Positions 32,607-35,247 of a DNA stretch of 44,698 bases are shown one piece after another; the stretch's first letter is position 1; each line of letters begins with the position of its first letter. The position numbers and the translations under genes are program-made. The stretch is from the NCBI GenBank assembly GCA_016927275.1, contig JAFGMW010000077.1:1-44698 (forward strand), read 5' to 3'. This DNA comes from Pseudomonadota bacterium (GTDB lineage: Bacteria > UBA10199 > 2-02-FULL-44-16 > JAAZCA01). Below the pieces are notes generated by a model. The model was not told the origin of the DNA. It ran no database searches and saw nothing but the letters and a program-made list of their open reading frames with translations.

Positions 32607-33140
32607 ATGAAGAAGGTTGCGGTGTTGCTGGTGGCTGCCATGGTGATGAGCCTTTCGCTGGCAGCAAAGGCCCGCGCGGCCACTGACGCGTCGAGCGGCT
32701 CGATCAAGATCGGCTACGTCGACATGAACAGGGCGCTCAACGAGGTCAACGAGGGCAAGAAGGCCAAGTCCCAGCTCGAGGCGGACGGAAGGGCGAAGAA
32801 GCAGAAGCTCGAGATCATGCAGAACGAGATCAAGTCCATGAAGGAGGAGCTGGACAAGCAGCGCCTCATCCTCTCCAAGGAGGCGCTCCAGGAGAAGGAG
32901 GCCAAGTTCCAGCAGAAGTTCTTCGAGCTCCAGAAGATGAGCGTGGATTTCGAGCGCGAATTCGCGGAGAAGGAGGTCAACTTCATTAGGCCCATCTCCG
33001 AGAAGCTCGCCAAGGTCATCCAGCAGATCGGCCAGCAGGACAGCTACACGGTCATCATGCCCAGCGCCATGGCGCTCTATTCGATCCCGGGCTCCGACCT
33101 GACCGACAAGGTGATAGCGCAGTACAACAAGGGCAAGTGA
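32607..33140 (+). CDS. skp: Periplasmic chaperone, Skp/OmpH family (first copy)
   Basis: Holds unfolded outer-membrane proteins in the periplasm before delivery to BamA. The 177-residue product has a signal peptide (about 1-24, ending AKARA). The family's IGYVDMNRALNEVNEGKKAK follows, then a long charged coiled coil (about 55-130), and TVIMPSAMALYSIPGSDLTD near the end. It has its own promoter and a near-perfect SD. Its last four bases (GTGA) overlap the start of a second family member. Confidence 0.92.
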   Translation: MKKVAVLLVAAMVMSLSLAAKARAATDASSGSIKIGYVDMNRALNEVNEGKKAKSQLEADGRAKKQKLEIMQNEIKSMKEELDKQRLILSKEALQEKEAKFQQKFFELQKMSVDFEREFAEKEVNFIRPISEKLAKVIQQIGQQDSYTVIMPSAMALYSIPGSDLTDKVIAQYNKGK

Positions 33141-33721
33141 AGGGCGGCGTGAGAAGAGGCAAGACATCGATCGCAGCGCTGACAATGGCCGTGCTGGCCG
33201 CAGTGGCCGGTACGGCCTTTTGCGCTCCTGCGCGCGCCTCGTCCGGTGAAAACATCGGGGCGAGGATCGGCTATGTGGACATCGGCCGCGCCCTGAACCA
33301 TGTCTCCGACGGCCGGGCCGCCAAGCAGCAGCTCAAGCTCGAGTTCAGGGAGAAGCAGCAGAGGCTGGACATGCTCCAGAAGGAGCTCGCTGAGATGAAG
33401 GACGGCCTCGACCGCGACAGGATGTCGCTCTCGTCGAAGGAGCTCGAGTCCAGGGATGGCGCCTACCGCGGCAAGCTCATGGACGTGCAGCGCCGCTTCG
33501 CGGAGTTCCAGCAGAACATGGCGGAGCGAGAGGCCAGGCTCACGGGCGAGATCCTCAAGAGGATAAGGACGATCGTCGCCGACATCGGCGACAGGGAGGG
33601 ATATGCCCTCATCCTGGAGAAGTCGCAGGAGCTGGTCCTCTATTCTCCTGGCGCGAGCGACATCACCGACCGGGTGATCGACGAGTACAACAGGGGGGCC
33701 AAGGGCAAGAGGGGGAGGTAG
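33137..33721 (+). CDS. Periplasmic chaperone, Skp/OmpH family (second copy)
   Basis: A 194-residue paralogue of the preceding gene: signal peptide (about 1-35, hydrophobic core ALTMAVLAAVAGTAF, ending PARA), the same IGYVDIGRALNHVSDGRAAK block, a coiled coil and a terminal YALILEKSQELVLYSPGASD segment. The GTG at 33137 overlaps the previous stop as GTGA; a GTG four codons later is possible. The sequences are diverged well beyond a recent duplication, so the two copies probably have separate roles or form mixed trimers. Confidence 0.9.
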   Translation: MKGGVRRGKTSIAALTMAVLAAVAGTAFCAPARASSGENIGARIGYVDIGRALNHVSDGRAAKQQLKLEFREKQQRLDMLQKELAEMKDGLDRDRMSLSSKELESRDGAYRGKLMDVQRRFAEFQQNMAEREARLTGEILKRIRTIVADIGDREGYALILEKSQELVLYSPGASDITDRVIDEYNRGAKGKRGR

Positions 33722-33722
33722 C

Positions 33723-34361
33723 ATGGCGCTCGACCGGCGTCTGCTCGAAATGCTCGTATGCCCGCAGTGCAAGGGCGGCCTCGAGGAGGTCGACGGCGGC
33801 TCGGGCCTCTCATGCGGCCGCTGCAAGCTCAGATACCCCATTCGCAACGGGATCCCGATCATGATATCGCAGGAGGCAGGCGACCTGAGGGCCGACGCCG
33901 GCCAGGGTGTGCGTTTGGCGCGCGCGAGCTTCCGCATATCCGAGGGGAGGGACGCGGGGCTGACCTTCCAGGTCGAGGCGGGGACCTGCAGGGCGATCGG
34001 CAGGGCCCAGGTCGACCCGAACCGCACCGCGGTCTTCAACATGGACATGGCGTTCGCCCTCGACGAGGGCACCAAGGGTCTCATCCTCAAATACGTAGCG
34101 AGGCAGTTCCAGCAGATGAGGGCGCAGGAGGGGGCAGGCGAGAGGCTCGGCCTCTTCAGGCGCTCGCCCGACGTGGTGCTCACCGACGCAAGCCTCTCAC
34201 GGCTGCACGCGATGATCTTCTCCGACGGGGAAAACGTGGCAATACTCGACCTGGTGAGCAAGAACGGGACCTTCGTCAACGGCCAGGAGATCGAGTCGAG
34301 GATGCTGAGCCCGGGCGACGTCGTGGAGCTCGGCGACACCACCATGGTGATGGAGAAATGA
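33723..34361 (+). CDS. Trm112-like zinc ribbon fused to an FHA domain
   Basis: A 212-residue cytoplasmic protein of two parts. Residues 5-48 are a Trm112/YcaR-like domain: LLEMLVCPQCKGGL, CGRCKLRYPIRNGIPIMI, with C13, C16, C31 and C34 as a zinc site. Residues about 66-212 look like a phosphothreonine-binding FHA domain: GR (93-94), SRLH (159-162), SKNGTFVNG (179-187) and LSPGDVVELGD. About 50 residues (100-150) are inserted between the first FHA strand pair and the SRLH loop. It starts one base after the second skp stop and ends seven bases before yicC. Function unknown; phosphopeptide binding is inferred from the retained FHA residues. Confidence 0.8.
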   Translation: MALDRRLLEMLVCPQCKGGLEEVDGGSGLSCGRCKLRYPIRNGIPIMISQEAGDLRADAGQGVRLARASFRISEGRDAGLTFQVEAGTCRAIGRAQVDPNRTAVFNMDMAFALDEGTKGLILKYVARQFQQMRAQEGAGERLGLFRRSPDVVLTDASLSRLHAMIFSDGENVAILDLVSKNGTFVNGQEIESRMLSPGDVVELGDTTMVMEK

Positions 34362-34368
34362 GGGGACG

Positions 34369-35247
34369 ATGGAATCGATGACCGGATACGGGACCGCGGA
34401 GGGCAGGGTCGGCAAGGGCCGTCTCTTCGTGGAGATAAAGAGCATCAACCACCGCTTCAACGAGATCAACGTCAAGATCCCGGCCCGGATGGGGGTGCTG
34501 GAGGCGCATATCCGCAGCAGGCTCACCGCAGTTTTTCCGAGGGGGAAGGTGGACGTCTTCTTCAAGGAGAAGGAGCCCCTGTTCGGCGGCGTGGCGGTCA
34601 CCATCGACGTCGACATCGCGAGGCAATACCAGCGCCTGCTCAGGAGGATGAAGCAGGAGCTCGGCATAGACAGCGACAGCAAGGGGCAGTTCCTCCAGAT
34701 CGTAGGGCTCGACCGCGTGCTGAGGGTCGAGGAGGCTGAGGGCTCCTACGAGAAGCTCTGGTCACAGATTGGAAAGCTGATCGACAAGGCGGTCTCCCAG
34801 GTCAGGCAGATGCGCCGCCGAGAAGGGGCCCACATAGGCCGCGACCAGCGCAAGAGGCTGGCGAGGCTGAAGGCCCTGATAGTCGCCATAAGGAGGGAGT
34901 CGGAGCGCTCCCTCGACAGCCACCTCCACAGGCTTCGAAAGAAGGTGGCGACCGCCGCCGGGACCCAGGTGGACGAGCAGAGGCTGGCCGCCGAGGTCTC
35001 CTATCTGGGCGGCAGGCAGGACATAGCGGAGGAGCTCCTCAGGCTGGAGAGCCACATCAAGCAGTACGGCGGCGTGATGGGTGAGAGCGACCAGATCGGC
35101 CGCAAGCTCGATTTCCTGCTGCAGGAGATGCACAGGGAGATAAACACCATCGGATCCAAGGCCTCGGACGCGAAGATCTCCCAGCTCGTCGTTGACTGCA
35201 AGTCAGAGCTGGAGCGCCTGAGGGAGCAGATCCAGAACGTGCAGTGA
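34369..35247 (+). CDS. yicC: YicC-family endoribonuclease
   Basis: A 292-residue protein of the YicC/YloC family, described as an RNase. The N-terminus MESMTGYGTAEGRVGKG, the segment VEIKSINHRFNEINVKIPAR and the C-terminal half with RQDIAEELLRLESHIKQY, GRKLDFLLQEMHREINTIGS and the terminal ELERLREQIQNVQ are standard. The ATG at 34369 is just beyond GAGGGGACG. The gene is three bases before gmk, the usual yicC-gmk arrangement. Confidence 0.95.
   Translation: MESMTGYGTAEGRVGKGRLFVEIKSINHRFNEINVKIPARMGVLEAHIRSRLTAVFPRGKVDVFFKEKEPLFGGVAVTIDVDIARQYQRLLRRMKQELGIDSDSKGQFLQIVGLDRVLRVEEAEGSYEKLWSQIGKLIDKAVSQVRQMRRREGAHIGRDQRKRLARLKALIVAIRRESERSLDSHLHRLRKKVATAAGTQVDEQRLAAEVSYLGGRQDIAEELLRLESHIKQYGGVMGESDQIGRKLDFLLQEMHREINTIGSKASDAKISQLVVDCKSELERLREQIQNVQ

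Follow-up and report, generated by a model that had tools for sequence, protein, structure and literature searches.

The window, by which we mean the whole 44,698-nucleotide stretch analyzed here, carries on its forward strand a gene for a protein that joins a zinc ribbon of the Trm112/YcaR type to a forkhead-associated (FHA) domain. This fusion gene, its parts, and the adjacent genes are listed below with the evidence for each.

32607..33140 (+): second OmpH-like gene (PF03938)
33137..33721 (+): skp/OmpH-like gene directly upstream of the fusion gene, with a 1-base gap (PF03938)
33723..34361 (+): Trm112-FHA fusion gene, 212 aa, ATG at 33723, stop codon ending at 34361
33732..33851 (+): Trm112/YcaR-type zinc ribbon, residues 4-43, with Cys 13, 16, 31, and 34 (PF03966, E 1.2e-12)
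33918..34007 (+): first half of the FHA domain (beta1-beta3), residues 66-95, with R94 in the GR motif (insert-removal test, shuffled control, AlphaFold2 strands)
34008..34157 (+): insertion in the FHA beta3-beta4 loop, about residues 96-145 (43-member alignment, conservation; AlphaFold2 pLDDT <50)
34026..34049 (+): candidate phospho-acceptor motif T102-A-V-F-N-M-D-M, residues 102-109 (Thr in 40 of 43 members)
34164..34358 (+): second half of the FHA domain, residues 148-212, with S159-R160-x-H162 and N181-G182-T183 (PF00498, AlphaFold2 model, GarA Z 17.3)
34369..35247 (+): yicC, for a YicC-like endoribonuclease, 7 bases downstream (PF03755, PF08340)

The earlier note had read the protein as a Trm112/YcaR-type domain with four cysteines joined to a sequence with the FHA core residues, and the Pfam search that it proposed agreed, as both matches exceeded their cut-offs. 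Trm112p (PF03966) matched residues 4-43 with an E-value of 1.2e-12 (48 bits; cut-off, 22), a region that holds C13, C16, C31, and C34. FHA (PF00498) matched residues 148-204 with an E-value of 2.1e-15 (57.3 bits; cut-off, 20.7). The phosphothreonine (pThr)-contact motifs of FHA domains are GR, SRxH, and NGT, and all three are kept. Yop-YscD_cpl, a family with the FHA fold, was matched by residues 149-211 (E 4.6e-14). None of the NCBIfam models exceeded its cut-off for the fusion protein; the OdhI equivalog model NF041660 failed with 36.9 bits against 200, and the YcaR equivalog model NF008806 failed with 37.2 bits against 126. The protein has an FHA domain and, judged by sequence, a Trm112 domain that is distinct from the stand-alone YcaR protein. 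It does not belong to the GarA/OdhI family, because it lacks the ETTS tail and missed the equivalog cut-off; the region before its FHA domain consists of the ribbon and a linker, and ETTS is absent from the fusion protein. A frame error or a chance co-occurrence of the two domains was ruled out, since the frame is open in 43 homologues.

The GR arginine (R94) and the SRxH serine (S159) are separated by 64 residues, whereas 13 residues separate the two positions in four further FHA domains from the genome; the fusion protein therefore has about 51 extra residues here, close to the insertion of about 50 residues that the earlier note had described. The spacing across the 43 members is 53-80 residues. 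When residues 96-145 were deleted in silico, Yop-YscD_cpl was matched continuously over profile positions 1-91 of 94 with 66.8 bits. Without the deletion, the second half alone scored 52.4 bits and the FHA part including the insert scored 54.4 bits. In one relative, insert removal gave 66.2 bits versus 47.3 bits for the second half alone. As a control, 30-31 residues of the FHA first half were scrambled in 10 sequences, 5 of which were derived from the window protein. The shuffled sequences scored 51.2-55.9 bits (window) and 45.8-46.8 bits (relative) with Yop-YscD_cpl, and 0 of 10 matched from profile position 1. The PF00498 score did not discriminate between real (65.2 and 61.3 bits) and shuffled sequences (55.4-65.7 bits). 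The insert removal and the shuffled control indicate that residues 66-95 are beta1-beta3 of an FHA domain that is split by an insertion in its beta3-beta4 loop.

We also obtained an AlphaFold2 model from an 8-row alignment (mean pLDDT 58.3), an earlier model from three rows (mean pLDDT 44) being too low for use. Strands were predicted at residues 68-74, 81-84, and 89-94 before the insert, and more strands from residue 151 on, with pLDDT block means of 52-85 in the first half of the FHA domain and 69-92 in the second. Across residues 96-148, which make up the insert, pLDDT was under 50, and a helix was predicted at residues 115-132. Fold searches were carried out with residues 64-212, and the zinc ribbon was compared by sequence. 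The top structural match was GarA (6i2r_B; Z 17.3, rmsd 1.4, 94 residues), followed by OdhI (4qcj, Z 17.1), CT664 (Z 16.7), and DgcB (6hc0_D, Z 16.2), where matches within 1 Z of each other are regarded as tied. Foldseek placed GarA, CT664, and OdhI first, in this order, and GarA was the best FHA domain among solved structures by profile (5.4e-13). In a single-sequence PDB search, the FHA domain of CT664 was ranked over that of GarA, which counts against the switch reading discussed below. Structure prediction, one of the checks suggested in the earlier note, thus gave a model with a predicted FHA sandwich nearest to those of GarA and OdhI.

A position for beta3 at LGLFRR (residues 142-147), where two trial MAFFT alignments set the "IGR" of ordinary FHA domains, was considered and rejected. 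A third MAFFT alignment set this "IGR" on the "IGR" of residues 92-94. For the model, the ordinary FHA rows were trimmed to beta4 onwards, so the placement of beta3 is not decided by them, and the model obtained after this trimming places beta3 at residues 89-94. Directly after the insert, a conserved G-x-F-[KR]-R stretch with an invariant R147 (window 34146-34163, residues 142-147) mimics the GR motif.

The distribution of the family was examined with a profile (A1) built from 28 members out of an initial 30; the two omitted are L020, a near duplicate of L019, and L033, whose start is unsure. At E 1e-25, the family was found in 43 of 46 genomes of the class, with 28 of these finds made by construction since the profile was built from those genomes. 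All 29 class genomes with completeness of 90% or more and contamination of 5% or less have a member. The three misses are G016, G031, and G032, for which the search at E 1e-25 gave no member. Outside the class, none of the 464 genomes sampled from four other phyla matched the fusion family at E 1e-20. This sample comprised 132, 40, 1, and 291 genomes from the phyla of G054, G057, G059, and G049, respectively, and in the search of the 291 genomes only 10 candidates per listed genome were scored. No relatives of the fusion were found in viral contigs with two patterns. Two of the relatives come from metagenome-assembled genomes, bacterium isolate SKS1.bin41 and Deltaproteobacteria bacterium isolate C24_metabat.bin.128. 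A literature search under the two terms Trm112 and forkhead-associated found no paper that pairs them; its scope was these two wordings. The earlier note had called for a count of the fusion but had missed its class-wide extent, which rules out a one-off fusion. These results indicate that the protein is retained by nearly all sampled members of a poorly known bacterial class.

We traced the gene order at 36 loci by tblastn with 27 window genes including the fusion, so that the trace shows only genes with a counterpart in the window. The skp and yicC genes were named by Pfam, and the names of the other neighbors are labels from sequence reading. A skp-like gene lies 5' of the fusion in all 36 loci; in 33 of them the trace continues with yicC, and the other three end at a contig edge. 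The position after skp and before yicC given in the earlier note is right. Where the stretch suffices, the order is mostly lysS, lolC, lolE, lolD, bamA, skp, fusion, yicC, gmk, and rel. The 1-base and 7-base gaps in the window suggest that the fusion gene is likely to be cotranscribed with its neighbors. The two skp/OmpH-like genes of the window match PF03938 with E-values of 6.1e-27 and 1.7e-28; tandem copies were also traced in L038, L040, L041, and L050, and one copy in the other loci.

A link to envelope assembly, which the earlier note put forward from the place of the gene after skp and before yicC, draws only on gene order (lolC-lolE-lolD-bamA-skp-fusion-yicC). In its developed form, this explanation would make the FHA fold a phospho-independent, structural one like the cytoplasmic domain of YscD/PscD, serving as an envelope-assembly scaffold beside bamA and skp. 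The fusion does resemble Yop-YscD_cpl, from a type III secretion system component, in its continuous match to profile positions 1-91 of 94 after insert removal. However, the pThr-contact residues are kept in the fusion almost without exception, although a domain with a purely structural role would have no use for them. We consider a scaffold of this kind very improbable. The traced neighbors of the fusion are lol-bam-skp-yicC-gmk-rel.

A four-cysteine zinc ribbon is shared by the fusion with YcaR, UPF0434, and bacterial Trm112 proteins, and the best solved relatives of its ribbon by sequence profile are the UPF0434-type structures 2js4 and 2hf1. According to the excerpted text of a 2017 review (PMC5372719), YcaR-type proteins usually have about 60 residues, whereas the ribbon of the fusion is joined to an FHA domain. 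The same excerpt calls the function of bacterial Trm112 unknown and notes Trm112-methyltransferase fusions in some bacteria. In the family, the zinc-ligand cysteines 13, 16, 31, and 34 are present in 41, 39, 41, and 40 of 43 members, respectively; two rows lack the domain, and a few members have Ser in place of C16 or C34. PF03966 is matched by the fusion in 39 of 46 class genomes, 36 of which have no further match over the cut-off. The members from G043 and G045 have the four cysteines by alignment without a PF03966 match, and G024 has a PF03966 match outside the fusion as well. In G029 (L061) and G009 (L062), the Trm112 domain has been lost, while the FHA domain, the insert, and the gene order are kept; PF03966 has no match anywhere in the G029 genome. 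In G020 (L051:4940-5158 (-)) and G040 (L073:567-953 (-)), the gene directly upstream of the fusion is a stand-alone Trm112 gene, which scores higher with PF03966 than the fused domain (48.7 versus 31.8 bits in G020 and 55.5 versus 35.7 bits in G040).

These data bear on a role as a methyltransferase activator, in which the ribbon would bind and stabilize an S-adenosylmethionine-dependent methyltransferase as eukaryotic Trm112 does, and the FHA domain would add kinase control or bring the pair to a phosphorylated target. The PF03966 match, sole in 36 of 46 genomes, and the methyltransferase fusions noted in the review excerpt (PMC5372719) are in line with this role, but the loss of the ribbon with retention of the FHA domain and insert in G029 and G009, the absence of any PF03966 match in G029, and the Ser substitutions at C16 or C34 argue against it. 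A methyltransferase gene next door was ruled out, since the adjacent genes are skp and yicC. Among the 27 traced genes, the only one labeled as methyltransferase-like from sequence reading is rsmI; in the window its start lies 8.6 kb downstream, and the trace recovered it at 3 of 36 loci, many of the loci not extending far enough to show it. The methyltransferase link proposed in the earlier note was thus not upheld by the neighborhood or by the 2 of 43 members without a Trm112 domain, and we regard an activator role as unlikely.

The FHA pocket is strongly conserved. R94 is present in 43 of 43 members, S159 in 42 of 43, H162 in 43 of 43, and N181 and T183 each in 41 of 42 readable members. 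The insertion is conserved as well. In the alignment of 43 members, whose rows are related so that counts are not independent, the mean column pair identity of insert residues 96-126 was 0.415, compared with 0.41 for the zinc ribbon and 0.392 for beta1-beta3; values were lower for the linker (0.207) and for insert residues 127-141 (0.156). In its first half, the insert is therefore as conserved as the zinc ribbon, a feature that the earlier note did not report. When the insert of a relative was searched against the PDB, nothing matched. Column 102 of the alignment contains Thr in 40 members, Met in one, Ile in one, and a gap in one, and never Ser. A restriction to Thr without Ser is expected for a pThr-selective FHA ligand. 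Among the 40 members with T102, a hydrophobic residue (VILMFYW) is found at +3 in 40 and at +2 in 38; both positions are hydrophobic for 38 of 40 T102 residues but only 36 of 439 other Thr residues in the same proteins.

The member without the T102 stretch, from G015, is also the only one with S159N, N181T, and T183S, which alter three pThr-contact positions. In a tree of 42 of the 43 members, from which G040 was left out because it is cut by a contig end, G015 lies among members that bear T102, and the absence of T102 is therefore a loss. The G015 branch is long (1.95) and its placement was flagged as unsure by the tree program, and the co-loss is a single event. G015 differs at 9 of 37 conserved positions, including Y124C, G143S, F145L, M164L, and F166Y; the G045 member has 11 changes at conserved positions and has kept its pocket. 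Against a switch, Met or Ile stands in place of T102 in G043 and G045, both of which keep the pocket; T-V-V and T-V-I occur nearby.

A different reading of these features is quite possible, although we place it below an even prospect. The FHA domain would read a pThr on another protein, either a kinase or a client; the insertion would be a folded partner-binding subdomain, and T102 would be structural and unphosphorylated. This would account for a pocket kept in nearly all members, among them G043 and G045 with their Met and Ile, and for L113, D114, and Y124 in the helix part, which are conserved about as T102 or more; it also fits with kinases in all class genomes. It gives no reason, however, for Thr without Ser in 40 of 43 members, for the hydrophobic +2/+3 residues, or for the joint loss in G015.

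The T102 context was compared with known FHA self-peptides. In GarA, OdhI, and DgcB, a Thr peptide of the protein's own N-terminal tail sits in the FHA cleft, and the shared features of these peptides, as given in an excerpt of the report, are hydrophobic residues at -3, +2, and +3, Glu at -2, and Ser at +1 (PMC6733907). The residues at -3, -2, and +1 of T102 are outside this rule, which is a point against a switch. When the 17-residue GarA tail peptide, SDEVTVETTSVFRADFL (as quoted in part of PMC8546545), was slid over the family profile, the best register put the second GarA Thr on T102. In comparison with shuffled peptides, TSVFRADF gave a p value of 0.0026 and ETTSVFRADF 0.0028. Other cuts of GarA failed, with 0.105 for VETTSVF (-3 to +3), 0.107 for ETTSVFR, and 0.167 for TVETTSVFRA, and for the full 17-mer p was 0.15 when the insert was scanned and 0.34 for the complete protein. 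The GarA-like motif had been noticed before the resemblance was tested, and the resemblance of the T102 motif to the GarA self-peptide is suggestive only, as a sequence likeness.

Pkinase matches were present in all 46 class genomes (the own genome and 45 others), with at least three in each and six in the own genome. This is the co-occurrence of a Ser/Thr kinase for which the earlier note had proposed to look, and with the kept pThr-contact residues it leaves the suggested link to Ser/Thr phosphorylation plausible. PP2C_2 was matched in 43 of 46 class genomes; the own genome (G000, assembly rated 96% complete) had no PP2C_2 match, which speaks against a switch.

We tentatively favor, while holding it at somewhat under even confidence, a phospho-switch adaptor in which the phosphorylated insert of the fusion protein takes its own FHA pocket. 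The kept pocket, the Thr-never-Ser pattern at 102, the conserved insert, the hydrophobic +2/+3 residues, the likeness to GarA and OdhI, the co-loss in G015, and the kinases all favor this switch. A Ser/Thr kinase would phosphorylate T102 in the insertion, and pT102 with its hydrophobic +2 and +3 residues would fill the FHA pocket of the same molecule in cis. Alternatively, pT102 could enter the pocket of a second molecule in trans and give a dimer or oligomer; trans binding modes of self-peptides have been discussed for other FHA proteins, according to the excerpt consulted (PMC6733907). Only seven residues lie between R94 and T102, and cis binding may therefore be sterically hard, which, like the low pLDDT of the insert, counts against the switch. 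Pocket filling would shut out a client, while the unphosphorylated protein would keep its pocket free, and the zinc ribbon may serve as a second docking surface for a partner. The fuller statement is more doubtful: an FHA domain with its own pThr ligand inside the fold, where T102, phosphorylated in the insertion of the pThr-contacting beta3-beta4 loop, competes for the pocket in cis or enters it by a swap in trans, where a kinase sets the availability of both pocket and ribbon, and where the arrangement is fixed across the class, the gene being in one string together with skp and yicC-gmk-rel. Self-recognition of this type, if real, would represent a new FHA topology, with the ligand placed within the domain and not in a tail. 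It would also connect Ser/Thr kinase signaling with the bacterial Trm112 domain, which is little understood. The fusion is a single-gene, class-wide test case for the role of bacterial Trm112 ribbons. Even without a switch, a protein in 29 of 29 good class genomes at a fixed place merits a name and an assay.

Among known systems, GarA and OdhI are the top structural matches of the fusion, GarA is also its best FHA match by profile, and the T-x-V-F-x-x-D context is partly similar. They differ in that their motif is an N-terminal ETTS stretch (excerpt of PMC12321487), whereas the candidate of the fusion lies inside an FHA loop with a zinc ribbon attached to the domain. Once phosphorylated, OdhI no longer inhibits 2-oxoglutarate dehydrogenase, as stated in an excerpt of PMC9769921. 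DgcB of Bdellovibrio, an FHA-GGDEF protein, recognizes a Thr peptide of its own and shares with the fusion the hydrophobic +2/+3 residues and a close fold (6hc0_D, Z 16.2), but its peptide is in an N-terminal tail and its output is a diguanylate cyclase. The own genome also encodes a separate FHA-GGDEF protein like DgcB (L004; GGDEF assigned by eye), with threonines just before its FHA domain.
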